From Fomitopsis serialis (lineage: Eukaryota > Basidiomycota > Agaricomycetes > Polyporales > Fomitopsidaceae), in the NCBI RefSeq assembly GCF_022376445.1, contig NW_025955011.1, positions 124,001 to 188,000 of the forward strand: a DNA stretch of 64,000 nt, written 5' to 3'. Both the position numbers and the translations under genes were made by a program. The stretch's first letter is position 1; each line of letters opens with the position of its first letter. This document shows, piece by piece, positions 1 through 31,600 of the stretch. The notes beneath the pieces were generated by a model. The model saw only the letters and a program-made list of their open reading frames with translations. It made no database searches and was not told the DNA's origin.

Positions 1-1003
1 GCCTTCCCTGTCATATCACGAGATGTAAATACCGGTGCCAACACGACTGTACACTAATGGGACATCCCGACTATCCATCATGCGACTCTGAGACAGGACG
101 GGGTGGCAAGAGCCCGCCGCAGCACTCGGCGCTTCTCCTGGCTGCAAGACCGCTAACTCGGCCGCCTTCACTCGGTCCACCGCCCGCCAGTAATCCACCT
201 CTGCCTGGATGTATAGATCCATGCCGGCCATCGATTCGCCGAGACCGTCCAACCAATTCAGGGCTTGGACTGGCACGTTTGGGGGCATGTTCTCCGGTGA
301 GATCACACCTGGCTCGGGTATTTTTGGGAGCACAGGGAGGTGGATGCGGTCGGTGTGAGCTCTCACTTCGTCCTAGTTTTTATTGTATAAGTCCCATGTA
401 ATGTGAATGTGCTGTGTAAAACCTACCCGGAGCTTCTCCACATGCAGCCGGCCATCAAGATGCTGGAGTTGCTGTTGGGCGGCCTTCAATTGCTCGGCGA
501 CCATCTCTTGGATTTTGGCCTGCTCGGTCGTGATGTCATCCAGCGCATCTTCGATTTGATCCCGGACTTGAGGCAGATCTTCCATCCAGGCACCGACCTG
601 CCCCTCTGTCGTGGCATGAATATCCGGAAAGGCCGGAGAGAATTGGTCAGTTACCTGGTTCACCAGAGTGCTCGGCGTGCAGCGAGGATGTCTCCGGCTG
701 CGGCGGTTGAGCGACATCCGCCGCTCGGAAGCCGAGGATCATGTCCACCAGGACCTCCTCCTGGGTCTTACCCTCCGGCAGCATGATCGTGCAGTACTTG
801 TCCATCACTTCCCCGAGACCCAGTTCCTCGGCCACATCGGGCTTCATCAGCCGCTCGAAGCCGAGCATCATGGCCGCCAGCGACTAGTGCATCAGTGGTT
901 ACTATGGTGCAGACACGTAAGTATGGATTGACCGCACCGTATAATGGATCATTGCTATGTATGGTAATTCTCCATTCTCCGTCGGGCGCAACTCCTGCCG
1001 GGC

Positions 1004-1205
1004 TGTGGCGTCCCTTAGTCCTCGTGCCCGGTATGCGCTGTATCCAGTCTCTATTCAGAGGAACTGTCTACACTTGCATACATGGGGCGATGAGGATGGT
1101 AAAGGACTGAGGTCTCGTAGGTGCACAGGCGCGCCATACGAGCCCTCAGGCAAACAATGACAAACATACAAGACGAGAAATACCGTAACGGGAATATCCG
1201 TTACA
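1004..1205 (-). repeat. 3' LTR of the element (minus-strand sense)
   Basis: This is the second 202-bp LTR copy, with no difference from 7855-8056 by eye. It lies next to the purine tract at 1206-1219 and is followed outside by the CGGGC target duplication at 999-1003. Confidence 0.9.
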
Positions 1206-1219
1206 CCCTCCCCCACTGG
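1206..1219 (-). other. Candidate polypurine tract
   Basis: Read on the minus strand this is AGTGGGGGAGGG, directly abutting the TG of the 3' LTR. That is the position and composition expected of the plus-strand primer of an LTR retroelement, and it fixes the element's orientation. Confidence 0.7.
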
Positions 1220-1437
1220 ACACGACCACGGGTCCCAGCGATAACCAGAGAAACAGATAGAAAAAAGGAAAAAGAAAGGAAACACACGCAACAACCCAAC
1301 GGTGGTAGCGAGTGGCAAAACAAAGATGATGTTGAACTGTAGACAACGACATGCTAGATCGTGTCAGTGAGCAGACACAACCATTCACCATTGTCATACA
1401 TAACTTGATGGAGTTATGCAACCAGGAACGTAGACTA

Positions 1438-2310
1438 CTACTCGGACTTGGAGTAGTAGTCTGCGTCTTCCGAGTTACCCTCATCTTCGGCAGATAGTGC
1501 AGAAGAACTCTGGATATCCTCCATCTCAGACTGCTCGTAGTAGTCAGAGACTACTACCGAGTTTGTCTCTTCAGACCCTGAACTTCGTGAGTACCACGAG
1601 CTATGGTGCTCGGACTCGGAGAAGTACTCCGACTCAATCTGGTCAGGGTACTCCTCACGAGTGGTGGTATGAGGCTCCTCATCAGAGGAGTTATACCAGT
1701 CAGAGTCATCCCGAGGTTGACTGCGAGGTGGTACAACAAGCCATCCCAGCTTGTTGTAGGCCCAATATCGCACCATCTCCATAGGTAATGGTGCAATGAG
1801 CAGAGGATCAAACTCGAGAGGAACCACTTCCAATTCCCTCTGGAAGTGGTCCCATGCTCGACGAGCAGCACGAGAATATGTCCCCGGTCGCGGGGACATC
1901 TCCTCGATGGCCTGTCCACAGCTGAGTGCAGATCTCTTGCAGTGAGCCCAAATGGCCCACTCGCCATCACTCGCCGCGGATTCGGCCTCGTCGAAATCGT
2001 GGTCGAGCTGGTCCGCGAGGAGGCTGAAACACAACTTGCACAACACCTCATCCGTGGGCCATTGACTCACGTCGACGATTACTGGACAATCCGGTGTGCA
2101 TGCTCGGTTCAAGACTGGTACTTCGCGGCACGAAGTACCGGCTTCCCGAGTGGCGTTGTGGCCACGATGGTCACTACTAGTACCCTCCACGTCGAGTCGA
2201 TCACTCGACACTCGCGGTACTAGTACGGGTAGTACCTGTCTCGATGTTTGACATGAGGCCTCTTCGCGCAACATACTGGTGGCAGTGTGAGATAGGCGGC
2301 GGCCACTCAA
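1438..2310 (-). CDS. LTR-element ORF 3, 290 aa, acidic Ser/Tyr-rich C-terminus
   Basis: This is the last ORF before the 3' LTR, in a different frame 20 bp from ORF 2. Residues about 80-180 look more globular than the other two ORFs (for example DEVLCKLCFSLLADQLDHDF and PMEMVRYWAYNKLGWLVVPP). The last 90 residues are acidic, with repeated DYY, SES and SSDEE clusters. The stop codon sits inside a perfect 12-bp palindrome (1432-1443 with 1451-1462). The family is not recognised. ORF 3 might continue ORF 2 through splicing or frameshifting. Confidence 0.6.
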   Translation of the reverse strand: MSGRRLSHTATSMLREEASCQTSRQVLPVLVPRVSSDRLDVEGTSSDHRGHNATREAGTSCREVPVLNRACTPDCPVIVDVSQWPTDEVLCKLCFSLLADQLDHDFDEAESAASDGEWAIWAHCKRSALSCGQAIEEMSPRPGTYSRAARRAWDHFQRELEVVPLEFDPLLIAPLPMEMVRYWAYNKLGWLVVPPRSQPRDDSDWYNSSDEEPHTTTREEYPDQIESEYFSESEHHSSWYSRSSGSEETNSVVVSDYYEQSEMEDIQSSSALSAEDEGNSEDADYYSKSE

Positions 2311-2330
2311 GGCCCCGCTCCCTTCCCCTC

Positions 2331-4568
2331 TCAGGAGAGTACCCCCCTCGTGGAGGAGGTAGCTCCTCCCTGTGCTCGCGCCAGCTCGGTCTCAGTACCA
2401 TTAGTAGCAGTCGAACGTCGCCGTTCGCCTGAGTCCAATGATTCCAGCCCTCGCGCTGGCTGTGCCTTCTTACGGGCGCGCGACGACGCCCTGGTCATCG
2501 CGTCATTCGATGCGGGCGCATCACCTGGTAAACTGGATGTGCCTGCCACACCATACGGCATGAGTATTTGCACCCGCGAGGACGAGGGTTCGTCCTCGCC
2601 AAGTGTCTCCACTACTGGAGTTATTGACGTCGACTTGTCAGTCGACGTCAATCCAGTCGACTGACCCGGGTCCGAGGAAGGAGACGGCACATTCGTCTTG
2701 GATGTGCTCGGCGGTGGGTCCCGGTCTTGTTCGTTGGATGTGCCAAGTACCTCGCGGTACTTGGTGTAGTGTTCGTCGCCGTAAGCCGCGACCAGTCCAC
2801 GTTGGTCTTCGAGGTGCTGCCAGTGGGCGCGACGTGCAGGTGGCATGTAGCGTCCCGACGGTCGCCATCCGGGCTCGGGTGCAGCCTGTCGCACATCTAC
2901 CTTTGTAGATGTTTCGGTCGACTGCTCGCGATCCACGGGATCTGGCCTGCCCATTTTTTCGTTAAGGCTCGTTTCAGTGTCGCCCAGCGGTGGCACTGTA
3001 ATGGGAGAAGGTGGGTGGGCGAGTACCTCGCAGTACTCGCCCTGGTCAGTCAGACGATCGTGTCCGCCTGCAGCATCCTCTGCATCGAAGGTAGTGCTCG
3101 ATGGCGGTGCCGCACCAGACGTGGATAGGTGGGACGCGTCAGTAATGCGTGTATGCACTCCGGACGCGCCGCCGTGCGTGGCCACAGATACGACTAGTAT
3201 GTCGTTCTGTGGTGTGAATGGACCACTGTCCATTGCGACGACCTTCAGGGTGGTCGCAATCGGCGCGAGCAGTGGTACGGAAGCGGGTGACGGCGGTCGC
3301 GATGCGAGTACTGAAGTGTACTCGCTCTTCGGGTCACTGGCGAGCTCAGAAATGCTGGCGTCGAGCGTAAGGCTCGACGTCATTGGTGGTATCGGGATGG
3401 AAGATGGTGACGGCGAGGTGAGTACCGTGAGGTACTCGTTGTTGAGCTCACCGCCGAGCTCCTCCGCGTATGCATCGCACGGTATGCCCGACGTCCGCAT
3501 AGGAGCTACCAGGACGTTGGGTGCGTCGATCGAGCTCGCCGGCTCGCCGGTCATACCGCCATGCCTGACCATGCCGGGTACGACCTGTAGGTCGTCCCCT
3601 GGGCTGACTGTACCACTGTCGTATGCGGTGACTGTCACGACAACCGCCTCGGTTGTCGTGGTCGTCACGGGCGGTGATAATGGGATAGGAGATGGTGGTA
3701 GGGGCAGGGGGGGTACGTCTCTCGCAGACGTACCTGTCGTCGAGCTATCCCACTCGACTCGCACACCTTCTGTGCTTGCCCTGCACCCTTCCCCCTCTCC
3801 TCCTTCTGCCTGACCCTCCTCATCTACCTCTCGCGCTTCCTCGCCCTCACTCATATCGCCCTCGTCCCCGCCCTGACCGTCATTCGGTCCTACGCGCGTC
3901 CCCCAGGGTTCGCGTGCGATCTCCGACTCGTGGTGCCCGTCGTAGTCGCCATGGGTGTCGGAAACCATGGAGAAGTCGATGGAACGTTGGGTGGGGTTCC
4001 CTAGGAGCGAGCCCTCGGCGAGAACTGTAAAGTTCTCGCCGGGTTGACGGTCGGGACACCGGTCTGGCGTATCGGGTTTCGTAAGCGCCGGCCGCTGCAC
4101 TACCGGCAGTGCGGCAGTCGGGTCGCGAGCTCGAGCTCGCGCGTTCTTCAGGAGTACGCGATCGTCGGGCTGCGCGCTCGTCGGGGCGCCGGGGTCGCGG
4201 AGAGAGTGGTTGCTGGAGAAGTCGAGGTCGAGATCGGGGCTTGCCAGCTCAACCGCACAGGGTTCGGCTGTCTTTAAGCCCGAGACGGAGACTTGCACGC
4301 CCTGGAGGATGTGCAGGTTCTCCTGGGAGGCGTCCGCGCGGAATTGATGACCATCGGAGGTGATAACGAGTCCGTCCGGAGGGCCTGCCAGTTGAACCGC
4401 AGGCGGTTCATCTGTGCAGGTGCGAACCACTTGTGCTCGCCAAGGGACGGTCCGAGCCTCTCGCAGCGAGGCCATACGCGGCGGTCGGCCTTCCAAAGAT
4501 CTTGTGGAGTCGAGCGCGTCGCCAAATGGGTCGCCGGGGTCGTCCCATGGCTTGGCCAACTGAACCAC
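2331..4568 (-). CDS. LTR-element ORF 2, 745 aa, same repeat style
   Basis: This long ORF lies 574 bp downstream of ORF 1. It is rich in Ser, Pro, Thr, Asp and Glu, with no recognised domain. Near the N-terminus a module of the form AVQLAGP / AVELASP / VVQLAKP occurs three times. Further on, hexapeptide variants such as EYLTVL, EYTSVL, EYCEVL and KYREVL recur, each coded by a palindrome (2743-2764, 3636-3660, 3712-3734, 4016-4041). ORF 1 carries the same kind of motif, so the two probably arose from one repeat stock. The upstream gap (4569-5142) holds an acidic plus-strand ORF at 4600-4751 and two more hairpins (4753-4781, 4823-4852), but no ORF in the element's sense. Confidence 0.65.
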   Translation of the reverse strand: MVQLAKPWDDPGDPFGDALDSTRSLEGRPPRMASLREARTVPWRAQVVRTCTDEPPAVQLAGPPDGLVITSDGHQFRADASQENLHILQGVQVSVSGLKTAEPCAVELASPDLDLDFSSNHSLRDPGAPTSAQPDDRVLLKNARARARDPTAALPVVQRPALTKPDTPDRCPDRQPGENFTVLAEGSLLGNPTQRSIDFSMVSDTHGDYDGHHESEIAREPWGTRVGPNDGQGGDEGDMSEGEEAREVDEEGQAEGGEGEGCRASTEGVRVEWDSSTTGTSARDVPPLPLPPSPIPLSPPVTTTTTEAVVVTVTAYDSGTVSPGDDLQVVPGMVRHGGMTGEPASSIDAPNVLVAPMRTSGIPCDAYAEELGGELNNEYLTVLTSPSPSSIPIPPMTSSLTLDASISELASDPKSEYTSVLASRPPSPASVPLLAPIATTLKVVAMDSGPFTPQNDILVVSVATHGGASGVHTRITDASHLSTSGAAPPSSTTFDAEDAAGGHDRLTDQGEYCEVLAHPPSPITVPPLGDTETSLNEKMGRPDPVDREQSTETSTKVDVRQAAPEPGWRPSGRYMPPARRAHWQHLEDQRGLVAAYGDEHYTKYREVLGTSNEQDRDPPPSTSKTNVPSPSSDPGQSTGLTSTDKSTSITPVVETLGEDEPSSSRVQILMPYGVAGTSSLPGDAPASNDAMTRASSRARKKAQPARGLESLDSGERRRSTATNGTETELARAQGGATSSTRGVLS

Positions 4569-5142
4569 AGAGGATTCAGCGACGCGTTTACGAAGACGGG
4601 AGACCCGCCAGGCGGATGGCGCGAAGAAGACCAGGACCAGGAAGCGAGAGAAGAAGACGCGGAAGACGAAGACGACGAAGACCCGAGCGGAGAGGAAGAC
4701 CAGGACCAGGACGGAGGAGAGGCGGAGAACGACGAGGGCGACGAAGACTAAACGGTACTAGCTGCACGGCGAAGTACCGTCCCCACACCCTACCCAACAC
4801 CACCATCGACACATCGTGCACTAGGGGGGCAATCCCGGCTTGCGCCCCTAGGAGAAAGACACCGGAGTGCCGAGATATGGACCGTATGCTTTCCCCTCAT
4901 TTCTCGCTTCTTCATTATTCTCTATCTTTATTACCATGCGCGTTACGTCCCGACCTCAGACCACACCATTAGACCCCGTCTCACAACCCGATTAGATTGC
5001 CTGCCCATTACTATACAAACATCACGTCTATAGACTACTATACCACCTCGAACGGGACGCAGGTCTGGGTGGCGCGTTTTAACGCCCACATTTGTACAGG
5101 CCGGCGTCCGCCGCGTCTTAGCACGTTGTTTGCTTGTTGCGG

Positions 5143-7710
5143 TTAATAAATGCTGAGTTCATCATCATCATCAACAGAGGATTCAGCTGCGTCGGAGCAG
5201 CCAGAGACCTGCACTTCCTCACGGAAGTGCGATCCATCTTGGGACGCCGATGTTAGCGCGATGCTACTGTCCGACAAGGAGTCAGTGAACACCGCGTCAC
5301 AGCCAGTCGAGGTTAAATGGAACACCTCGGACCTGCATCGCTGCTGGTCCGTTGTACCGCCTTGCGAGATGGAAGGTACGACCTCGCGGTCGTCCACTAG
5401 TACAGGTGCACCACTTTGCAGTGCGGACGGTACAACCATTGGGTCGTCTCGTAATTCGAACGTGCCATCTTCATGGTCACTCGTGATCATGGGAGCAGCG
5501 ATGAAGAGACGGTGGCCCGACGAGTCGCGGGCGATGCTCTCGGCGGGCTCCCTGTTCGTCGTCACACTCACTGGTGTGGACGCCCTGGCAGGCGCGGACC
5601 TGGCATGTGTCAAAGTGAGTACGTTCCTCCGGGACGTATCCTCACTTTTCGACCCTTCGTGCCGGTCAATAGCGTGCACATCGAGTAGTAGATTCGGTGT
5701 GTGCGCTATGAAGCGGTCGTTGTTACCGGAACAGAGCACGTCGAACGCGAAGTGCTGCGTCTCCATCGCGCAGCCTTGCGAACTGGAGGGTACGACCTCG
5801 CGGTCGTCCCCTAACGCAAGTGTGCGGCCTTGCGGATCGGAAGACACGACCAACAGGTCGTCCTGCAGCGCGGATCTGCCGTCCTCATGGCCAGCCGCGC
5901 GCTCGGTGACCTTCACGTTCTTCGCTGCACTTGCTGGTGCGGGCACGGCCAAGAGGATAGGTATCGAGGTGGATACGTCCGCCTGGGGCGTATCCGCTAC
6001 TCGATAGCCAGTCATGGACTGGTGGGGCACGTCGGGCGTGCAGTACTGCGCGTCCGTCGTATCGCCTTGCAGGGTGAAAGGTCCGGGTACGACCTCAGGG
6101 TCATAACGCAGCACCCGTGGGACATCCGGTACGACTTCGCAGTCGTACCTGAGGGCAGTAGTGCCATAGTCGTGGCCAGTAGTGCGCACGACGAGCCTTG
6201 AGTTCGTCGGTACGCCTACTGGCGCAGGTACAGAGGGTATGGAGGGTACGACCTGGAGGTCGTCCCGCAGCACAGACGTGCTGCCACACGGAACATCAGG
6301 TACGACTTCGCAGTCGTACCTGGGGACGTGGTTGCCCTCTTCGTGGCTAGCAGGATGCACGACGAGCTTCTCGTTTGTCGCTACGCCTGCTAGCGCGGGC
6401 ACGGGAAGCGGGGGCTGCGATGCAGGAACGTACAGTGAGTACGTACCTGTGGTAGTCGAGCCTTCGGGCTCGTGCTTCCTGCTCGCCCCGCACCCTTCCT
6501 CCCTCTGTCCCTTTGTTCCTTCCTTCTCCTCGCTATCGCTCCCCGTCTCCCTGTCCTCTTTCTGCTCTCCTCGCTCCGTGTCCTTCGTGGTCCGCTCGGT
6601 CCTGCTACTCGGCGCGGGACTTGAACGCGCATCGTTCAAGTCCTGGATCACGCGGCTGCGTTGCGTGTCGCCAGAGCCGCGGTAGGGGTCGAGGCGCGAG
6701 ACGAGAGGGGAGAGTCGAGGATCCGGGGAGGAAGGAGGTGGTGATCTGGTACCGTGAAGTACCAGGTCGTCGGTCGCCACTGACTGGACTGGCGGCAAGT
6801 CAGACAGCCATTCGCGAACGCGAGTTCGCACTCGCGTTGGGGCCCCGCGCGCGTCTGGTTCGCCAGACGGGCGCTCGAGGTGGCTGCCCAGAGAGTGGGA
6901 GTGGTCGAGGACGTGGAGTCGGTGGTGGCGGTCGAGCGCAGTGCGGTGGGCGCTAGCACTCAGGCCGCTCGCCACGGACCCGTGACGCTCGACGCCCGTA
7001 GGGTCGAGCGCGTCGCGCGTCGCGTCGAGCAAGCTGCTCGACAAGGCTCGCACGTCATTCGACAACGAATATATGCTTTTTGTGTCGCGGCTCATCTCTG
7101 AGCACGCGACGGGCGTATCTACACGCGTGGGCTCGTTCCCACTGCACACAGTACTACTGTAGTACTGTGTGCCTATGCCCTCCCGTGTGCTAATGCGAGT
7201 CAGCTCCTGGCGCTGCTCGTTCACTCCGGGCACGAGCTCGACTACGGCTACGTCGTCGAGCTCGGCGCGCTCACCACTCCTCCGAGTGGTGCCGAACTTC
7301 ATCGGTTGGCTGGTAGCAGGCGGAGAATCAGTCTCCGGGCGGCTCTGAGCGAGCTCGACGTTGGGCTCGAGCTGCTCAGCGCGCGGTGCCTGTTCGACCT
7401 CACGGTCGGACGGCGCCTGCTCTGTGAGTGCTCCGGCTGAGTCCTCGCGGTGAGAGGACTCAGTCCGGGTGGTCTTCGTGCGAGAAGACCGACTGCGGCT
7501 GCTGGCCTCGGACAGTGCGGCGTCGACCGTTGCCAGCAGGTCGGCCTCGAGTTGCTTGGATTCCTCGAGGGCTTTGTTGATCCGCTCTTGACTTGCGGCG
7601 AGCTTCGCTCGGACTTCCTCGCGCAACGCCTTCAGCTTGCTGCGGGTCCCACTGTGGGACCCGCGGCTGCTTCGCGAAGGTGCGGACGGGTTGGTGGTCG
7701 ACTCGGACAT
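5143..7710 (-). CDS. LTR-element ORF 1, 855 aa, palindrome-encoded repeats
   Basis: This is the first ORF after the 5' LTR and begins MSESTTNPS. Residues about 25-80 form a charged heptad-like coiled coil (KALREEVRAKLAASQERI), which would fit a capsid-like role, but no Gag family is recognised. The rest is low-complexity Ser/Thr/Pro/Asp sequence. A short motif recurs, for example DDREVVP, DCEVVPD and DDLQVVP. Each instance is encoded by a perfect DNA palindrome with a 4-7 nt loop, for example 6128-6149, 6299-6320, 7144-7172 and 7438-7462. The C-terminus ends in an acidic run. I do not know the function; the ORF is intact. It could be a divergent structural protein or a passenger ORF. Confidence 0.7.
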   Translation of the reverse strand: MSESTTNPSAPSRSSRGSHSGTRSKLKALREEVRAKLAASQERINKALEESKQLEADLLATVDAALSEASSRSRSSRTKTTRTESSHREDSAGALTEQAPSDREVEQAPRAEQLEPNVELAQSRPETDSPPATSQPMKFGTTRRSGERAELDDVAVVELVPGVNEQRQELTRISTREGIGTQYYSSTVCSGNEPTRVDTPVACSEMSRDTKSIYSLSNDVRALSSSLLDATRDALDPTGVERHGSVASGLSASAHRTALDRHHRLHVLDHSHSLGSHLERPSGEPDARGAPTRVRTRVREWLSDLPPVQSVATDDLVLHGTRSPPPSSPDPRLSPLVSRLDPYRGSGDTQRSRVIQDLNDARSSPAPSSRTERTTKDTERGEQKEDRETGSDSEEKEGTKGQREEGCGASRKHEPEGSTTTGTYSLYVPASQPPLPVPALAGVATNEKLVVHPASHEEGNHVPRYDCEVVPDVPCGSTSVLRDDLQVVPSIPSVPAPVGVPTNSRLVVRTTGHDYGTTALRYDCEVVPDVPRVLRYDPEVVPGPFTLQGDTTDAQYCTPDVPHQSMTGYRVADTPQADVSTSIPILLAVPAPASAAKNVKVTERAAGHEDGRSALQDDLLVVSSDPQGRTLALGDDREVVPSSSQGCAMETQHFAFDVLCSGNNDRFIAHTPNLLLDVHAIDRHEGSKSEDTSRRNVLTLTHARSAPARASTPVSVTTNREPAESIARDSSGHRLFIAAPMITSDHEDGTFELRDDPMVVPSALQSGAPVLVDDREVVPSISQGGTTDQQRCRSEVFHLTSTGCDAVFTDSLSDSSIALTSASQDGSHFREEVQVSGCSDAAESSVDDDDELSIY

Positions 7711-7854
7711 CTTGTCGAGTTGTCGAGTTGGCCAGAATATGATCAGAATAGCATAGAGTTGTTGACGTCGAGTAGGTAGATATCGAAGTCGAGTTTCAAG
7801 GTTGTTGCCTAGAATAGATTCCCAGAGTAGAAGCTTGTCTGGAGCGCAAAAAAG

Positions 7855-8056
7855 TGTGGCGTCCCTTAGTCCTCGTGCCCGGTATGCGCTGTATCCAGTC
7901 TCTATTCAGAGGAACTGTCTACACTTGCATACATGGGGCGATGAGGATGGTAAAGGACTGAGGTCTCGTAGGTGCACAGGCGCGCCATACGAGCCCTCAG
8001 GCAAACAATGACAAACATACAAGACGAGAAATACCGTAACGGGAATATCCGTTACA
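7855..8056 (-). repeat. 5' LTR of the element (minus-strand sense)
   Basis: This 202-bp repeat reads as identical to 1004-1205. Read on the minus strand it begins TGTAACGG and ends GCCACA, with a 7-bp inverted repeat (GTAACGG/CCGTTAC) at its start. It should hold the promoter of the element, but I see no clear TATA box. Confidence 0.9.
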
Positions 8057-8199
8057 CGGGCGAACTTGCCGAGAAGGTCCTTTGCGGTACTGTTGAGAAG
8101 AGGGCCGAGGGTGGAACGCATAGTGCAGCCGTGATTGAAAGGTAGCGGGGTGTTGTGGTGCTCGGTGCGCTTCGGCAATGAAGGTTAAGAGCAAATGAT

Positions 8200-8799
8200 A
8201 TGATCGTTATCTTCAACAAGCCACACACACCCATCACATGCCCGGTGTGGCTCGCACGTGCTGAGGCACCGCCAGCGGCTCCGCATAAGGTTAAGTGTCA
8301 CAGCACACGTGCCGAGTGTTTGCCGACACGGGGATCTTCCCAGGGTTGTGTGTCACTGTGGCGCATTAGTGGTGGACAGTGCCTCTTGCACATCATCCAC
8401 CACCAAAAGTACTGTTCACTCAGCATGGCCCTGGATATGGTAAGTCATCGGCCGGCCGAGACAACCTCCCTTGGCTGATACACAATAGCATCCCCGCTCT
8501 GGACCATATCCCTGGCTGAGGGGAGAGTTGATGGTGTTTGCATTTTCAACCGCGTGAGCAAATCCCACGGTTCATCCTATCCGTTTTTACTGACTAAATG
8601 TTGCAGCCACGCCGAGGTAGTGCCCTTCCGTCCAAATGCATACACTATCAGCCGGTATTTCTTCGGGCATGTGGTCATGTCAGTGACCCACGAGAACAGC
8701 CGAGAAAGTGTGGAGATGCCGGAGATGGACGGCCGGCTGGCATTCCTCATGATGCTCATTGATTGGGTGGAGATCCGGGACAATTTGATTGATACCTGA
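8200..8799 (+). CDS. Possible small gene with three exons, unknown
   Basis: Two introns with good GT-AG ends (8440-8488 and 8554-8606) join 8200-8439 (or a shorter start at 8425), 8489-8553 and 8607-8799 into one open frame ending TGA. The last exon reads like real protein (YFFGHVVMSVTHENSRESVE, then an acidic helical end). No family is recognised. It lies divergently next to the split gene at 16-8121, so 8122-8424 may be a shared promoter. It could be a fragment of a larger gene. Confidence 0.4.
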
Positions 8800-9069
8800 G
8801 TTGATGTTTTGTCATTTGCTCTCTTTTGTAATTCATTATGCTGTGCTGCCTACTTCTCACAACTGAAACTTATATATTGGGTAACTTTTCTAACACCCAG
8901 AGACTGAGCACAACTCTCAGGTTATGTCTGAGTTGATCAGCGCTGACAATCCCTCTAACTCAGTCAGTGCTGACAGTCCCTCTATACGAAATGAGGTGTT
9001 TTCATAGCCACCAAGACCATAATTGGGCACAGGGACCCACTTGTCTGTCCGCCCGGCGAAAGGATGCTC

Positions 9070-9352
9070 TCTCTCGGGCCGCACTTCGGTTGTTCGCTCG
9101 GCCCGAGACTTCGGTTGTTCGCTCGGCCCGAGACTTCGGTTGTTCGCTCGGCCCGAGACTTCGGCCGTTTGCTCGGCCCGAGGGTTCGGCCGTTTGCTCG
9201 GCCCGAGGGTTCGGCCGTATGCTCGGCCCGAGACTTCGGCCGTATGCTCGGCCCGAGGTTTCGGGAATTCGCTCGGCCCGAGGGTTCGGCGCTTCGCTCG
9301 GCCCGAGGGTTCGGTGGTCTTCTCGGCCCCAGAGTTCTGCGGTGTGCTCGGG
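9070..9352. repeat. 25-bp palindromic minisatellite, about 11 units
   Basis: The unit is roughly CGAGACTTCGGTTGTTCGCT plus CGGCC. Each copy carries the near-palindrome CTCGGCCCGAG. Because 25 is not a multiple of three, all three frames on both strands read through with a 25-residue protein periodicity (RSARDFG, GRANGR and similar). These frames are repeat artefacts, not genes. The flanks 8800-9069 and 9353-9731 are AT-richer and hold nothing I can name. Confidence 0.9.
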
Positions 9353-9731
9353 CGGAGTGGTTTCGCACATGAAGGGACGAGGAGGGCGAGAGTATGCGTT
9401 GTGGTTAATGCCATTGAGACATCATCAGGAAAAGCCATATTCACTTGAGCGTACTTCCAAGGAATCCCATTCCTTTCAAGACAGTAAAGTCAGCTTTGGC
9501 AGCTTTGGCAGCTTTCAAGTTCATCAAGACTTTCATGTCTTCTGCACAACACACTGTTGTGGATGATCTTTCCTTTTTAGCCTCTGGGGCAGCAAAAATT
9601 ATTGATAGGCTTTGGAGGCATTTTGGTTTTATGTACTAGTGGCCTACTGTTATTACTGTAACTGTGATGTACTGAGCCCTGTACAAATTCCTATCCTTAC
9701 TTTGACTTGTACTACTAATATTCATGTACTA

Positions 9732-10122
9732 CTGACTACTACCGCGACCTCAAGACGTACGTTTGGGGCCGTATCAGGTGAGTCAGTTGCGTTCAGAAAA
9801 GAGCCACTGATCAAGAATGATCTGCAGTCAGCGTGTCGACGGCATCACCAGCGATCAGTCGGACGACGAGCCAGACGAGAACTTCATGGACTGGACGGCT
9901 TTGCAACAGGCCGCAAAGCCGGCGTCACCGTCCAGACCTGCCAGTGGGCCGTCAACATCGCGTCCAACCACGGCGAAACCGTCCTCGGCGAAACCGTCCT
10001 CGGCGAAACCGTCCTCTTCAAGAGCCGCTGCGAAGTCAGCGCGGACCGCTGAGCAAGAGAAGGACGGCGAGGTCGCGGTTGACGAGGTCGCGGTTGACGA
10101 GGTCGACGAGCTGCAAGGTATG
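9732..10122 (+). pseudogene. 391-bp copy of the 3' part of the DUF6532-like gene
   Basis: This segment matches 37115-37505 base for base as far as I can read, with equal length. It contains the end of one exon, a whole 50-nt intron and the next exon up to the splice donor (GCAAG then GTATG). Since the intron is present the copy arose by DNA-level duplication, not retroposition. There is no start, promoter or downstream exon, so it is a gene fragment. It abuts the palindrome-element relic at 10123. Confidence 0.9.
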
Positions 10123-12960
10123 TGACACGACCAGCAGGATACGTATCTCTCGAGGCCCCGCTCCCTTCCCCTCTTTGGAGAGTCCCACTCCGTGGATGTG
10201 GTAGCTTCACCATGCCCTGCGTCTGTAGATTCCCGTCCTCGCGCGGGCTGGGCTTTCCGTTCCCCAGGCGGTAGCCGTAAGTTTTTGATCCGCTCCCGGG
10301 CGCGCGACGACAGCCTTGTCGTCGCACATGCCAGTGTTGACGCGGGCACCTCGCTCGGGGTACGTGAGGTGCCTGCCACACCATGTGGTCCAGGCATTTG
10401 GATGCGGACTCGGTCTCGCCAGGTGTTGCTGTTCCTGGACCTACCGGTATATTGTCCTCGACCTGCGTTAATCCATTCGACAGTGTCGAGTTCGGAGAAG
10501 ATAAGAGCACATCCAAGATGGATGTGCTCGGCGGTAGCTCCGGGTCTCGTTCGCTGGACGCGCCAAGTACTTCGTGGTACTCGGGCTGGTGCTCGTCGTC
10601 GAAGAACACGGCCGGCTCGCGTCGGTCTTGCTGGACGCGACGTGCTGGTAGCATGTAGCGTCCCGACGGTCGCCATTCAAACTCGGGTGCAGTCTGTTGT
10701 TCGTAGACGTATACTGGCTGTGATTCGCGGGATTGAGCTCGTCTGTATCTTCATCGAGGTCTGTTGCAGTGTGACACGGCGGGGACACTGCAACAACAGG
10801 AGGTGAGTTGTCAAGTACCGTGAGGTACTCGCCCTTGACAGTAGAGAGGTCAAGTCCTTGTGCGGCACCCTCTGCACCACGATGCAGGTGGAGACGTGGG
10901 TACCCTATGGTACTCGCACTGCTCGTAAGGGTGCTCAGCGGCACCTACATCAAGCTCGTCGCTCCGTGGTGTTGATGGACCACTGTTGATTGCGACGACC
11001 TTCGGGGTGGACGCGATCGGTAGTGGTATCGGAATAGGGGGTGGTGATGGTGGGGCGAGTACCAGGTACTCGCTTTTCGAGTCACTGCCGAGTTCCTCGA
11101 AGCAGATGTCGAACGAGGAGTCCGAGATCTGCGCGTGAATGGCAGAGACGTTGTGGCAGGTGTTCGAGGGACGTACGTAGGTAAGTCGAACAGTGGGGCA
11201 CCGGAACTTGAAGGCGTCGCGGGCGAGTTGAGCGACGGTTGGCTGACCAGAGTGGGCGAGGTTGGAGCGAGTGGCATGGTGAAGGGAAGCAGAGGCGTCG
11301 GACGAGTGTGGTCTCACATAACACGAGGGCGGAAGAGAGAGTGAGGGAGGGCGAGATGGTGCGAGATGGTGTAGCACTCACCAGAGTCGAACTGACTCTC
11401 CTTTCCTTTCTGCTGATCTCCCTACTCGTCCCTTCGCAGTGCTTCGTCGCAGTAGCCGGAACGTCTCCTCGAGGCCATACAGTCGGTGTAGGCGGGGCGG
11501 ACTTGATGTCGCGCGGCTGCTCGACGTCGGGCGTGGACACGGTGAAGGCAGGCCGGCTTCCGGGCGCGCGGACGTTCCGCACAGCCCGGTACCTTTCTTG
11601 CAGGCCGGCCGTGTGGGTGGTATCCAGTGGCGCCGCGTGAACGGAAGGGGGCGAGACGGTGCAACGCATGGATGCAAGCACATTGAGCAAGGAAGGGGGC
11701 ATGTCGAGCGAGGCAAGGAGTGCGGAGCGCGGGCTAGCAGGCGAGGATAGTGAAGGGAGACGGGCGGTATTACCTTCCGTAGTCGATCTTGTTCGTTGCT
11801 CTACCTTGTTAACTTCCCAGTCTCGTGTTCTCGCCTCTGGCAGCCCCCCAGTCCCACTCACGCAAGAATGCATCCCTGCAATGGACAGGTCTTCCTCAGA
11901 AAGTCTTGACACGACCGTTTCCGCTTTGCTCGGCGCCCAGACCTGGACTTGCTCGTCCTCGCGCGTGGAGCTGGTGGTAGCCCGTCGGTCTCCGTGCATT
12001 GAGTTGGCTGTGGCACCAGGCGCCCGGACATTCCGCACGGCCTGGTGTTCATCCAGTGGGTCGTCCACGCATAGGACCTGGAAGGTCGCCGAGTCGCCGA
12101 GTCGCGAGAAGGATGTCGGGGGCGTGTCGGACAATAGCGGAAGCGCGAGACGCGAGGAAGGAGGAGAGGGAGACCAAGGGTAATTTGTGGTACTTGTGAG
12201 CAAGTCGGTCGAGGCCGTGGGTGAGGGCGTGACGCTAGTGCGTGGAGTCGAGGATGGCGGAGGGAGATGGACGCTGCGTGCGGGGGGTACTGATGCGTCG
12301 AGTGAGAGCGGAGTCGAGGGGTTGATACCGGGCGCGCGGCGATTCCGGGCTGCGCGGTGCTTGTCCATGCGATCCTCTGCGCGAGACTTCTCGAGGGCGG
12401 CTGAAGGGTGGAAGCTCGAGGCAGTCGATTGGGCGTCCTCAGGAGACTTTGAGGCTCGCGATGCTCGCGAGGGTGCGAGCGATGGGCTCGCGGCCGTACT
12501 TGCCGCCAAATTTGCTGCAGCGAGGTGACTAGCGGGTGCGCGGAGGTTCCACATGACCCGGTCTTCGCTCTGCAGCGCATCCGTGCTCGTGATTCCGCGT
12601 GCCGTCGGGTGGTTGGGGCGCGAGGAGAGCGAGGGCGAGTGAAGAGACGAAGGGACCGTGGACTCGCGTCCCCCGTCGGACGAAGAACACGCGTCGACGG
12701 AGGACTCCATCACTTGGCGCGTGAGCCTGGTAGATGGAGGCGCGAGTGAGGGGACGTGTGGCGAGGCCATGGGCGCGTCGGACAAGGACGAGGGCGCGAT
12801 GCGAGAGCGTGTAGTCTAGGATGGCGGGAGGAGATGGACGGAGGAACTCACTAGAGTCGTCCTGACTCTCCTGTCTTCCCTGTCGGCTTTTATGTTCCTC
12901 TCCTCGCAGCGACTCGACCTTGCGCCGGACGGTGCATCATCGGAGTGCCTTGAATGACGC
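10123..12960 (-). mobile_element. Diverged relic of the palindrome-rich LTR element
   Basis: Several blocks correspond in the same order to the interior of the 1004-8056 element: 10150-10420 to 2320-2560, 10500-10690 to 2690-2880, and 10770-11110 to about 2960-3420. Palindromes are kept with changed bases, for example 10505-10529 (11-bp perfect stem, 3-nt loop). The minus-strand reading frame is broken into pieces here (10676-9855, 10944-10468). No LTR copy was found at either end. The part upstream of 11082 has no counterpart in the intact element and is described separately. Confidence 0.7.
11082..12785 (-). CDS. 567-aa repetitive ORF in the element relic
   Basis: This is a long Ser/Thr/Pro-rich ORF with no recognised domain. 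A short motif recurs about four times at uneven spacing: VMWNLRAPAS, AARNRRAPGI, AVRNVRAPGA and AVRNVRAPGS. At the DNA level, 11370-11470 and 12840-12920 are alike and both include an intron-like polypyrimidine stretch ending in CGCAG, so the region grew by internal duplication. It may be a further ORF of the palindrome-element family that the intact copy lacks. Coding status is uncertain. Confidence 0.4.
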   Translation of the reverse strand: MSDAPMASPHVPSLAPPSTRLTRQVMESSVDACSSSDGGRESTVPSSLHSPSLSSRPNHPTARGITSTDALQSEDRVMWNLRAPASHLAAANLAASTAASPSLAPSRASRASKSPEDAQSTASSFHPSAALEKSRAEDRMDKHRAARNRRAPGINPSTPLSLDASVPPARSVHLPPPSSTPRTSVTPSPTASTDLLTSTTNYPWSPSPPSSRLALPLLSDTPPTSFSRLGDSATFQVLCVDDPLDEHQAVRNVRAPGATANSMHGDRRATTSSTREDEQVQVWAPSKAETVVSRLSEEDLSIAGMHSCVSGTGGLPEARTRDWEVNKVEQRTRSTTEGNTARLPSLSSPASPRSALLASLDMPPSLLNVLASMRCTVSPPSVHAAPLDTTHTAGLQERYRAVRNVRAPGSRPAFTVSTPDVEQPRDIKSAPPTPTVWPRGDVPATATKHCEGTSREISRKERRVSSTLVSATPSRTISPSLTLSSALVLCETTLVRRLCFPSPCHSLQPRPLWSANRRSTRPRRLQVPVPHCSTYLRTSLEHLPQRLCHSRADLGLLVRHLLRGTRQ

Positions 12961-18543: not shown

Positions 18544-21500
18544 CTACCACAAAGTCTGGTAAGAAAACTTACTAGCCCAATTGTTCAGCAAGAATCGTGA
18601 GGCGTCGTCTAGTACAGAATCAGAAGTCCAATGACTAGGTACCGTAAGTGTGGAGATTTCTAAAGAAGTGAGGGAGGGAAAACGAGGTATTAGCTGACAA
18701 CTCTGGCGTATACTACTCAAAGGGACTATCTCGCCGGAGGGCGTCCCGTTAGATCGAAGCGGCATTTTGTTAACATCGTACATGAGATGTACAGGATCGG
18801 CATGAGGGGCGAGTTTGGCGTACCACTCCACGTACGCAAGAGGCCCCTGTTCCGCCCATTCGGACGGCGCAGGGACCTCCTGAAACGTGTGCCTATCGCG
18901 AATGGTCTTGGGTAGGCGGAAGACCACGCGTAGCCTTCCGATTCGTGTCCCTGTTTTGAGAGCTCATTTTCAGCACAACGCAGACGTAGACTTTGAAGAA
19001 GGAGACTAACCTTGTAACCCAGTCGCCTCCCCTTCTTCCCCTCGAAGTACGACGATGGTGTCAAAACGGGCGCACTGGTCACCGCGCGCAGGTTTGGCCT
19101 TCACCGCGTCGTCCTCCAGCTGGTCATCCTCTAAAGATTCGGTGTTGAGCTTGAAACTGTGGAATACGTCCACGCGTGCGAACGGGAGGTAAGTCGCAGC
19201 CTTCTCTGCTTCACGATTGGTGAGTGTACGTCCCAGTTTCAGAGTGTAGACGTGTTGCGATAGAGCTTGCGTGAAACCCGGTGCGGCGTGTGCTTCTTGG
19301 ATGGAGGGTAGGGACTGCTGGCGAACAGACGGTTGCGCAGCTAACTTGATTCCTCTTTTGCCACGACTACCGGTACGTCCGCCTGCAGTAGTACTTGCTT
19401 CGTCCGAGGGGCCGTCGTCGTCGTCTTCGTGTAACCGATCGTAAGCAGCGAGTTCTTCTTCGGCAAGTCGCTCCTGAAGGACCTCGTACGCGAATATCTT
19501 CTCGCGACGCTCGAGCCACCGAACCATCTGTGGACGAGCGTCGCGGTGGTTAGAGGCTCGCCAGGCCTTCTTGGCGCAGTCTATATGGAGACGTTCGAAC
19601 ATTTCAGTATTGTAATTATCCGTAGTACCGAGAGATCGAATGGAATCGACGTAGTGTTGGAGCGAATGAAATTTAGGTATGTTGAGGTGCTCACGAATGC
19701 CGAGTTCCTTCAAGACGTGCTTGTTCTTGTGGTAGGTTTTCAGAGCGTCCTCAAGGTACGAAAGGGTGGTATCGTCATGCGTGGGGTATTGGGCGATGTA
19801 GATAAAGTCCAGAAGCGCGCGGAAAGTAAGGAGGGCGGCCTTCGGGATGCGCCCAACGAGACAGCCGAGCAGGATGCGAGCGATGTCCTTGCGCTCGGAA
19901 CCGGAGACCTGAGAAAGGGCGGAGATGCCGTTTTTGAAACGACGGGTACCGTAGGCAGGGGGTAGGCACCGTATACGCTGGTCGAGCTCCTTCTCACCGA
20001 TGAGTTCTGTGCTCCACTCCACCAGATGCTTGAATACTCCCTGGTAGAGTTGGTGGAGCACGTCGGGCGTGATGCAGGAATGGATGTCTGTGAAGGGAAG
20101 GTCTTGCCAAAACGGTTTGACGCAATAGCCTGAGACGTTGAATTCCTTGCATGCCTTCGCAAAGGCAGCAGAGTCCCTGGAGCCCTTTGAGCGCGCCTTG
20201 CGCAGAACGTCCAGCGTCCAGATCTTCGTGCGAGGCGTACCGGGAGAGGAATCGTCCAGTGCGTTCTCCGGACACTGGCAGCGCGGACACGTCCCATACT
20301 TGGTGCAGGTCACCAAGCACTGTTCAGGGTAGTCCGCTACGTACGAGGCCAGGATGGGGTGCACACGGCGCACCTTGCCGTCTCCACCGGTGATCTCTAT
20401 ACCTTCCTTGCCAGCTTCGACGAGGGGTTCCAGGATCATTCGTACCGAGTCATGGAAGAGCTGCTGGACCATAGCACGCTGCTTCCGCTGTGATATGCCA
20501 GTGCCGTTGATCTTGTCGACTGAGAGGTAGCCGATCAACACGCATGCATGCTCCGACGGTTTACGACGGAGCTCCTTGGGGATGTTGCCAAGCGTGAGGT
20601 AGATGGGGTAGGCCGATTTGTTCCCAGAAAACTGGGTGAGTTGCGTCTTATCCGTGGATATAATGACGGGGGCTAGAGCCGCACCGCCAGGTAAGAGGCT
20701 CTGCATATCATTCAGCTGGTGAGATTCCAACACAGTTAACGGACGTACCTGAACAGCGTGCCACCAGCGGCCTGTCCACATTTCAGTATAGATGCGGTTG
20801 GTGCGCGTAGAGTTCGAGAAGACGCGCTTGGGTCGGTACACTATTCGATTGGCGTGAGCGGGGTTGCCTAGCAAGGCCTTGATGGCCAGAATGACGTCTC
20901 TGAACTGCACTAGGTGCTGCTCAGACGGACGGTCCTTGAAACTAAGCCACCTTTCCTGCCAAGGCGCAAGCTCCGGAATAGAGTCGATTTTTTGCAAAAG
21001 GGCTCTATTGTTGTGATAGGACACCCCAAGTTTATTGCGCACCTGTCGCAGAGGCATCAGAAAACGCACAAGACTGAGAGCGGGAGCAACTTACGCCTGT
21101 AATCTCTAGGAAGCGGTCAATTGCTCCCTGACCGATACCCTCTTTGATGAACCACTTAGCAATTTCCCAGTCAGACTCGGAATCGAACGGGGCCCAGATG
21201 GATGAGCCTGAGTCGGCATCACCTACTATTGCTTTCAGATCCCTATGCGCTCACATCCAGGGAAACAGAAGACTCACCGTTGTTCCTACGTTCGTCAGCC
21301 CTCTCAAAATATCTCCTCCAGGACTCTCTCGCCGTGTCTTCCTCCCTTAGAACTTTGGCGATGCTCTCATCGACGTCTTCCACCCTCTCGTCTTCGTCAT
21401 CGTCCAGCTCAATAACCGTGCGTTTGACAGCGTCTCCGGTAGGTGCTTGAGCTCGCCTGCTCGGACCTGCGACAGGTACGAAATCGTACCTCTCCTCGTA

Positions 21501-28182: not shown

Positions 28183-28639
28183 CCAACGTCCGTCGTCTAC
28201 CATCTACTGTACGCTGCCGCACGACACGCTCGACCGTCCGCTCCTTCCAACCGTCCTTCCCGGTCAGGCGCGCAGTGGGCGCTAGCGCACCAGAGCTCGA
28301 CCGCCACACTCTCCTTCTCCGCCTGCCGCTGACCTCGTCCTCCACCACCCTCACTAACGCTCCGCCACCTCCCGCATCGTCTCTCACGCACGCCCGACGA
28401 ACGCAGTCACCAACAAGGCCCCGCCAACCAAGGAACGAGCCGCGCCGGGTACCAGCAAGGCACGCAAGCCACACCAAGCGCAACGGCCCGCGGCGACGAG
28501 CAACCGGTTCACGCAGGCCGACGTGCAGCGCGAACAAGTGCGCCGCGCGCCGAAGGGGCCATCGGGAGACGTACGGTGAGGGAGAGGGGATTTACAACGG
28601 TCAGGGAACCCCGCTAGCAGGTGAGTAACCCGCCTCCGC

Positions 28640-31600
28640 CCCGTGTACCACCCTCGTACCGCCCTCGTACCGCCCTCCGCCGCCCCCGTGCCCCGTCTGC
28701 TGCGTCAAACGCAGCCCCATGCCGCCCTAGGACTGCGTCAACACCTCGCGCGTACGCGGGGTGCCTTGTGCACGAAGGCCGGGCCCTCCAGTACCACGCC
28801 CGCCACCCGACCTCCTACCCCCGTCCCGCCGCTCTCCGCCGCCCCCGTGTCCCGTCTGCTGCGTCAAACGCAGCCCCAGGCCGCCCTGGGACTGCGTCAA
28901 CACCCCGCGCGTATGCGGGGTGCCTTGTGCACGAAGGCCGGGTCCTCCAGTACCACGCCCGCCACCCGACCTCCTACCCCCGTCCCGCCGCTCTCCGCCG
29001 CCCCCGTGTCCCGTCTGCTGCGCCAAACGCAGCCCCAGGTCGCCTCAGGACTGCGTCAACACCCCGCGCGTATGCGGGGTGCCTTGTGCACGAAGGCCGG
29101 GTCCTCCAGTACCACGCCCGCCACCCGACCTCCTACCCCCGTCCCGCCGCTCTCCGCCGCCCCCGTGTCCCGTCTGCTGCGCCAAACGCAGCCCCAGGCC
29201 GCCCTGGGACTGCGTCAACACCCCGCGCGTATGCGGGGTGCCTTGTGCACGAAGGCCGGGCCCTCCAGTGCCGAGCCCGCCACCCCGACCTCCTACCCCC
29301 GTCCCGCCGCTCTCCGCCGCCCCCGTGTCCCGTCTGCTGCGCCAAACGCAGCCCCAGGCCGCCTGGACTGCGTCAACACCCCGCGCGTATGCGGGGTGCC
29401 TTGTGCACGAAGGCCGGGCCTCCAGTACCACGCCCGCCACCCGACCTCCTACCCCCGTCCCGCCGCTCTCCGCCGCCCCCGTGTCCCGTCTGCTGCGTCA
29501 AACGCAGCCCCAGGCCGCCCTGGGACTGCGTCAACACCCCGCGCGTAGCGGGGTGCCTTGTGCACGAAGGCCGGGCCCTCCAGTGCCGAGCCCGCCACCC
29601 CGACCTCCTACCCCCGTCCCGCCGCTCTCCGCCGCCCCCGTGTCCCGTCTGCTGCGCCAAACGCAGCCCCAGGCGCCTGGGACTGCGTCAACACCCCGCG
29701 CGTACGCGGGGTGCCTTGTGCACGAAGGCCGGGCCTCCAGTGCCGAGCCCGCCACCCGACCTCCTACCCCCGTCCCGCCGCTCTCCGCCGCCCCCGTGTC
29801 CCGTCTGCTGCGCCAAACGCAGCCCCAGGTCGCCTCAGGACTGCGTCAACACCCCGCGCGTAGCGGGGTGCCTTGTGCACGAAGGCCGGGTCCTCCAGTA
29901 CCACGCCCGCCACCCGACCTCCTACCCCCGTCCCGCCGCTCTCCGCCGCCCCCGTGTCCCGTCTGCTGCGCCAAACGCAGCCCCAGGCCGCCCTGGGACT
30001 GCGTCAACACCCCGCGCGTATGCGGGGTGCCTTGTGCACGAAGGCCGGGCCCTCCAGTGCCGAGCCCGCCACCCGACCTCCTACCCCCGTCCCGCCGCTC
30101 TCCGCCGCCCCCGTGTCCCGTCTGCTGCGCCAAACGCAGCCCCAGGTCGCCTCAGGACTGCGTCAACACCCCGCGCGTACGCGGGGTGCCTTGTGCACGA
30201 AGGCCGGGTCCTCCAGTACCACGCCCGCCACCCGACCTCCTACCCCCGTCCCGCCGCTCTCCGCCGCCCCCGTGTCCCGTCTGCTGCGCCAAACGCAGCC
30301 CCAGGCCGCCCTGGACTGCGTCAACACCCCGCGCGTATGCGGGGTGCCTTGTGCACGAAGGCCGGGCCTCCAGTCCGAGCCCGCCACCCGACCTCCTACC
30401 CCCGTCCCGCCGCTCTCCGCCGCCCCCGTGTCCCGTCTGCTGCGCCAAACGCAGCCCCAGGTCGCCTCAGGACTGCGTCAACACCCCGCGCGTACGCGGG
30501 GTGCCTTGTGCACGAAGGCCGGGTCCTCCAGTACCACGCCCGCCACCCGACCTCCTACCCCCGTCCCGCCGCTCTCCGCCGCCCCCGTGTCCCGTCTGCT
30601 GCGCCAAACGCAGCCCCAGGTCGCCTCAGGACTGCGTCAACACCCCGCGCGTATGCGGGGTGCCTTGTGCACGAAGGCCGGGTCCTCCAGTACCACGCCG
30701 CCACCCGACCTCCTACCCCCGTCCCGCCGCTCTCCGCCGCCCCCGTGTCCCGTCTGCTGCGCCAAACGCAGCCCCAGGCCGCCCTGGGACTGCGTCAACA
30801 CCCCGCGCGTATGCGGGGTGCCTTGTGCACGAAGGCCGGGCCCTCCAGTGCCGAGCCCGCCACCCCGACCTCCTACCCCCGTCCCGCCGCTCTCCGCCGC
30901 CCCCGTGTCCCGTCTGCTGCGTCAAACGCAGCCCCAGGCCGCCCTGGGACTGCGTCAACACCCCGCGCGTATGCGGGGTGCCTTGTGCACGAAGGCCGGG
31001 TCCTCCAGTACCACGCCCGCCACCCGACCTCCTACCCCCGTCCCGCCGCTCTCCGCCGCCCCCGTGTCCCGTCTGCTGCGCCAAACGCAGCCCCAGGCCG
31101 CCCTGGGACTGCGTCAACACCCCGCGCGTAGCGGGGTGCCTTGTGCACGAAGGCCGGGCCCTCCAGTACCACGCCCGCCACCCGACCTCCTACCCCCGTC
31201 CCGCCGCTCTCCGCCGCCCCCGTGTCCCGTCTGCTGCGTCAAACGCAGCCCCAGGCCGCCCTGGGACTGCGTCAACACCCCGCGCGTACGCGGGGTGCCT
31301 TGTGCACGAAGGCCGGGCCCTCCAGTGCCGAGCCCGCCACCCGACCTCCTACCCCCGTCCCGCCGCTCTCCGCCGCCCCCGTGTCCCGTCTGCTGCGCCA
31401 AACGCAGCCCCAGGTCGCCTCAGGACTGCGTCAACACCCCGCGCGTACGCGGGGTGCCTTGTGCACGAAGGCCGGGTCCTCCAGTACCACGCCCGCCACC
31501 CGACCTCCTACCCCCGTCCCGCCGCTCTCCGCCGCCCCCGTGTCCCGTCTGCTGCGCCAAACGCAGCCCCAGGCCGCCCTGGGACTGCGTCAACACCCCG

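Follow-up and report, generated by a model that had tools for sequence, protein, structure and literature searches.

Short perfect hairpins under selection in the long open reading frame of an LTR retrotransposon family of Fomitopsis serialis

The long open reading frame (ORF) of a long terminal repeat (LTR) retrotransposon family in the polypore Fomitopsis serialis (genome 66.2 Mb) carries an array of short perfect hairpins, and selection acts on the nucleotides that form these hairpins rather than on the protein. The 64-kb window that we analysed, meaning the whole stretch of DNA, contains one copy of this element at 1004-8056. A preliminary description of the interval 1206-7854 had cited eleven inverted repeats, and all eleven are found exactly at their positions.

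Hairpin excess and selection on hairpin nucleotides

We counted as hairpins perfect stems of at least 8 bp with a loop of 3-8 nt. By this standard, 1206-7854 contains 26 hairpins, whereas 100 dinucleotide shuffles gave a mean of 0.71 and a maximum of 3. With stems of at least 10 bp, 13 hairpins were found against 0.01 in dinucleotide shuffles. Stem density is thus higher than in shuffled sequence, and a composition artefact is ruled out as the source of the hairpins. The preliminary description had put them at often one per 100-150 bp; the excess stands, and the density is lower, about one per 256 bp. It had also noted that the stem sequences differ, which is mostly correct, except that six pairs among the 26 share a 7-mer, either directly or as the reverse complement.

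The excess is a property of the family. Twenty regions of the genome were retrieved, one of which (L016) was dropped as a short match only, and adding the window copy gave 20 copies, some of them incomplete (L009 ends at a contig end, L011 matches over its first part only and the second LTR of L022 is partial). Hairpins are present in all 20, with 19-31 in each copy against 0.3-0.95 in 20 shuffles per copy, and positional clustering placed them at 64 sites across the family. Codon-preserving shuffles gave the same answer: nine family ORFs have 11-26 hairpins, whereas 50 shuffles of each average 0.82-1.64 and never exceed 6. Ten loci of the same genome that bear a reverse transcriptase (RT) have one hairpin in total, located in L031; none was found in L032 or in L126-L133, which are probably eight copies from a single copia family. 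The hairpins are not evenly spaced (coefficient of variation of spacing 0.62-0.90 in four copies), and a clear period is absent.

Loop length peaks at 4 nt, with 116 of the maximal stems of at least 8 bp in 11 representative copies. When stems of at least 6 bp were counted in five ORFs, enrichment was 7.0-fold at loop 4 and 0.8-fold at loop 0, and an extra excess was seen at loops of 11, 12 and 15 nt. GNRA-type tetraloops occur on both strands, 31 on the plus and 28 on the minus strand among the 116 loops, which are not independent of each other. As side observations, zero-loop palindromes of the form NACGTN are depleted in family ORFs (outer bases complementary in 35 of 296, against 92 expected), and in the 81 distinct 5' arms C-G pairs exceed G-C pairs by 1.51 to 1 and A-T pairs exceed T-A pairs by 1.54 to 1.

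The 26 hairpins of the window copy are as follows, without strand and with the loop length in nt in brackets. Stems of 13 bp are located at 2623-2652 (4) and 7144-7172 (3), and one of 12 bp at 1432-1462 (7). Stems of 11 bp are at 3636-3660 (3), 4016-4041 (4), 6297-6322 (4) and 6617-6643 (5), and those of 10 bp at 1732-1758 (7), 1823-1850 (8), 2576-2599 (4), 3017-3042 (6), 7437-7463 (7) and 7642-7664 (3). Stems of 9 bp are at 1537-1557 (3), 1878-1899 (4), 2117-2139 (5), 2743-2764 (4), 3712-3734 (5), 6128-6149 (4) and 6817-6838 (4), and those of 8 bp at 2893-2912 (4), 3304-3325 (6), 3359-3379 (5), 5211-5230 (4), 7024-7042 (3) and 7272-7291 (4). Relatives show paired changes at 2576-2599 and 6297-6322 and a paired change at each of 2893-2912, 3359-3379 and 3712-3734; at 7272-7291, one relative has two neighbouring paired changes.

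Comparison of the copies revealed how these nucleotides evolve. Divergence was compared among the 11 representatives, and comparisons that were gapped or had a flank divergence above 0.4 were dropped. At sites where the stem is perfect in one copy, the difference was 0.059 in stems, 0.194 in loops and 0.163 in flanks. The same slowing was observed when only the fourfold sites of six ORFs were compared: stems differed at 0.057, loops at 0.142 and the remaining sequence at 0.161. Both sides of a pair had changed in 462 cases, where 73.6 were expected, and in 374 of them the result was a Watson-Crick pair; mirrored pairs outside hairpins gave 6,033 both-sided changes against 5,190 expected. These counts are of ordered pairs of related copies and hence non-independent. 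Furthermore, 52 of 618 paired column pairs have at least two Watson-Crick types. Among 353 distinct contexts of the motif NAC-6-GTN, 199 have complementary outer bases, where 113 would be expected; these two bases, which covary, are the opening position of the first codon and the synonymous third position of a valine codon. Spacings of 5, 7 and 8 between NAC and GTN are likewise enriched, and most longer spacings are not. Because stems diverge slowly, also at fourfold sites, and changes that restore Watson-Crick pairs are in excess, it is the hairpin-forming nucleic acid that is under selection.

The element and its relatives

The window copy has two direct LTRs of 202 bp on the minus strand, identical at 202 of 202 positions, with TG...CA termini read from the sequence. 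In the sense of the ORF, the LTR at 1004-1205 is the 3' and that at 7855-8056 the 5' repeat; both fall just beyond the interval that the preliminary description had given. The target-site duplication CGGGC, read for the window copy only, is located at 999-1003 and 8057-8061. A purine run, AGTGGGGGAGGG in the sense orientation, adjoins the 3' LTR at 1206-1217 (minus strand) and resembles by eye a polypurine tract. No tRNA match that would mark a primer binding site was recognised by eye downstream of the 5' LTR, and no search was run for one.

The long ORF lies in pieces on the minus strand, and therefore the minus strand is the sense strand. Its 5' part is at 5143-7905 (920 aa, stop to stop), its middle part at 2331-4757 (808 aa) and its 3' part at 1438-2391 (317 aa). 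One cause of its fragmentation is a 593-bp insertion (4581-5173), which is absent from L009 and L010, lies outside the hairpin system and is flanked by a 14-bp repeat, ACAGAGGATTCAGC, with copies at 4567-4580 and 5174-5187. This insertion has a TCATCATCATCA tail and looks non-LTR-like. Diverged internal repeats make up part of the ORF of the window copy. None of the three ORF pieces of the window copy, nor the F. serialis protein P0001 or the R. roseus protein P0004, the only family members scanned, has a Pfam domain above the cut-off, which includes the RT and integrase domains of a pol of its own. Rfam covariance models gave no match up to E 0.1 in 900-8200 of the window.

A single ORF of 1,686-1,865 aa is intact in 7 of the 20 copies. 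The LTR pairs of 16 copies besides that of the window differ by 0-1 substitutions and at most 4 gap positions. A flank is shared only by L024 and L026, and therefore most copies are separate, recent insertions. Divergence between subfamilies reaches about a quarter of aligned positions and is higher for the incomplete L011. Across seven ORFs the ratio of non-synonymous to synonymous divergence (dN/dS), calculated with hairpin codons left out and windows of less than 50% identity dropped, is 0.50 overall. The two ends of the ORF have lower ratios (N-terminal 0.33, C-terminal 0.26-0.29), and the stretch between them has higher ones (0.56-0.81). The termini of the ORF are under purifying selection. 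Judged by its sequence features, the family is a recently active, non-autonomous LTR retrotransposon with a putative Gag-like product as its only protein.

Relatives of the family also have hairpins. Two elements, L035 and L036, have an LTR type in common with it (90-91%) and a different N-terminus; L035 contains 17 hairpins, where shuffles give 0.45, and L036 contains 19, where shuffles give 1.15. The stem at 6617-6643 of the window copy is also found in these two. A partial relative, L037, has 8 hairpins against 0.85 in shuffles. Rhodofomes roseus encodes family proteins (P0004 and P0006), and no protein homologue was found beyond Fomitopsis serialis and Rhodofomes roseus among the best 7,997-8,000 candidates by shared words that were scored in each search.

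Other features were observed in the window. A degenerate second relative of the element, whose blocks are 64-88% alike and which has four hairpins in its vicinity, is located at 9850-11100, and a 25-bp tandem repeat array with several open frames at 9035-9384. Positions 12001-64000 contain 37 hairpins, of which 27 lie in one 159-bp tandem repeat; about 29 copies of this repeat occupy 28600-33400, with the hairpin CACCCCGC in each and long open frames in three frames. An identical 9-bp hairpin with an identical 8-nt loop occurs at 9896-9921 and 37279-37304 and probably reflects a shared repeat. A Plavaka transposase ORF (Pfam PF18759, E 8.6e-113) is located at 19006-21090 on the minus strand.

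Candidate roles of the hairpins

We propose, as a plausible reading that still falls short of probable, that the hairpins are protein-recognised modules for packaging or assembly of this non-autonomous element with its putative Gag-like-only coding capacity. The modules would most likely be bound by the putative Gag-like product of the element or by the Gag of a helper. Being distributed along the element RNA, they might compact it and allow it to be taken into particles, whose RT would be supplied by another LTR element. The scheme would be analogous to the dispersed packaging signals that have been suggested in small RNA viruses. Since both the sequence and the pairing of the stems are conserved, G-U and A-C mismatches would be about equally harmful to recognition under this proposal.

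A candidate helper is suggested by a chimera. In L125 (C412:255600-265500), a single junction, near reverse-complement position 3918, connects the Gag-like part of the family with a Ty3-type pol, and near-identical copies at C516 and C40 bring the chimeras to three. By Pfam, L125 contains pieces of RVT_1, RNase H and an integrase zinc-binding domain; a further piece that looks protease-like by eye was not matched by Pfam. In its pol part, L125 matches the Ty3-type element L137, whose ORF has a zinc knuckle, recognised by eye. The chimera indicates that RNA of the family and RNA of a pol-bearing element have met, and the helper is a candidate only.

Several results weigh against the packaging proposal. 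L125 has 7 hairpins against 0.6 in shuffles, two of them in the degraded Gag-like part and four in the pol part, and those in the pol part are unexplained by packaging of the family. Loop sequences are not conserved, though several packaging signals of viruses are recognised through their loops. No Gag family of Pfam was matched by the window copy, P0001 or P0004, although a diverged Gag is still possible, and a single-sequence structure model of the 3' part of the ORF was not usable (mean pLDDT, a model confidence score, of 37.6). The strand on which the hairpins are constrained also belongs here. A structure in sense RNA should tolerate G-U above A-C on that strand. The sense G-U/A-C tolerance was 0.77 when the background was specific to codon position (0.54-1.14 by bootstrap over 53 clusters); when the codon correction was left out, it was 0.84 (0.59-1.23). 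The RNAalifold G-U/A-C ratio of the element was 3.34 for sense and 3.23 for antisense, whereas the controls gave 11.69 on their own strand against 3.53 on the other for transfer-messenger RNA (tmRNA) and 3.34 against 2.10 for leviviruses.

Further comparisons of the two strands gave a similar picture. RNAalifold energies of the element were -1098 for sense and -1292 for antisense, favouring antisense, whereas both controls favoured the functional strand. Folding z-scores of five ORFs against codon shuffles (12 each) ranged from -8.7 to -13.6 for sense and from -10.8 to -14.2 for antisense, and the energy baselines of the codon-shuffled sequences are likewise lower on the antisense strand. Among hairpins with one mismatch, A-C was found in 112 and G-U in 42 on the sense strand, against 5.9 and 2.7 in shuffles, without a clear preference. 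Raw counts of 189 G-T against 144 A-C in the window orientation had looked like a strand bias, which was gone after background correction. The hairpin constraint thus looks strand-symmetric. The perfect-hairpin test is weakly validated, because the same test on leviviruses gave 1.12-1.39 with intervals that include 1 and because tmRNA has too few short-loop hairpins (6 at stems of at least 6 bp). Strand symmetry means either that both strands, or the DNA, matter, or that recognition of the stem sequence by a protein is strict enough to make G-U no more acceptable than A-C. The preliminary description had suggested that the hairpins act in the element RNA; selection at the nucleic-acid level agrees with this, and with no sense-strand preference an RNA role is only possible.

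The first of these branches is a rival to the packaging proposal, and we regard it as possible though rather doubtful: the hairpins would have to form in the DNA or in both sense and antisense RNA, and not just in sense RNA. For example, if sense and antisense transcripts are each self-folded, they would be kept from annealing and feeding RNA silencing; alternatively, the DNA of the element might form hairpins or cruciforms. The symmetric tolerance, the RNAalifold ratios, the folding z-scores on both strands and the GNRA-type tetraloops on both strands are consistent with this. However, a protein that recognises a single strand might be disturbed by G-U as much as by A-C, and the test is itself weak, as its highest levivirus control shows (1.39, 0.90-2.24). 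Put more specifically, and with similar reserve, a strictly Watson-Crick, strand-symmetric hairpin code might overlie the ORF of a non-autonomous retroelement and act in DNA or in both sense and antisense RNA.

A functionless origin of the stems, in which template switching in the course of reverse transcription or replication makes and mends them, is unlikely. This process is known from rRNA and microRNA genes (PMC8794818). It would leave perfect stems that show no strand preference, and double changes of the Watson-Crick kind with no surplus of G-U intermediates. However, copying from arm to arm should not slow divergence, and stems diverge about threefold less, also at fourfold sites. The near absence of such hairpins from the ten RT-bearing loci of the same genome also argues against it, as does the C-G and A-T bias of the 5' arms, which is the reverse of the excess of G-C and U-A in RNA stems that is discussed in PMC8794818.

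A by-product of repeated peptide motifs (for example E-Y-x-x-V-L or D-D-x-x-V-V) and codon usage is highly improbable. Some hairpins do fall in recurrent peptide motifs, as seen in the translations, but synonymous codon shuffling abolishes the hairpins, which refutes this as a full explanation, and the synonymous third base of valine covaries in NAC-6-GTN. That the hairpins mark places where a tiny palindromic mobile unit has inserted, for which the suggestion in the preliminary description is the only support, has next to no chance of being correct, since a hairpin-sized gap with aligned flanks occurred in none of 2,780 comparisons among the 11 representative copies; in 179 of them the gap took in the flanks as well, and 84 contained some gap.

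Known systems and meaning

The element resembles TR-GAG elements in having LTRs, a 5-bp target duplication, one long ORF and no pol in the examined copies; it differs from them in that it has no known Gag domain, an ORF of the length given above in intact copies, and the hairpin array. Unlike LARD and TRIM elements, which are without coding capacity, it has a long ORF that carries the hairpins and is constrained overall, as its dN/dS shows. Hairpins within coding RNA are also a feature of single-stranded RNA phages and of dispersed packaging signals. However, six MS2-group phage genomes have 12 perfect hairpins of at least 8 bp in total, 1-3 per 3.3-3.6 kb against 26 in 6.6 kb here, and in the element the loops are not conserved and no sense-strand preference for G-U is seen. 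Genomic RNAs of Ty1 and Ty3 are likewise structured LTR-element RNAs; the available text of PMC11381356 describes them as a mosaic of structured and dynamic regions and mentions no array of perfect short hairpins. A literature search, which covered no preprints and few subscription papers, found no such hairpin array described in an LTR element.

Long perfect stems are thus about seven times denser here than in the MS2-group RNA phages compared. The strand symmetry would question the use of paired changes as proof of structure in sense RNA, and if the hairpins are read on both strands, they would represent a kind of cis-acting system undescribed for LTR elements in the literature found. Many diverged copies with near-identical LTR pairs are present in one genome, which would make recognition of a Gag-like-only element by helper machinery, or its escape from silencing, directly testable. 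If the finding is true, a retroelement gene bears a second, nucleotide-level code, in which about 25 hairpins are under selection.

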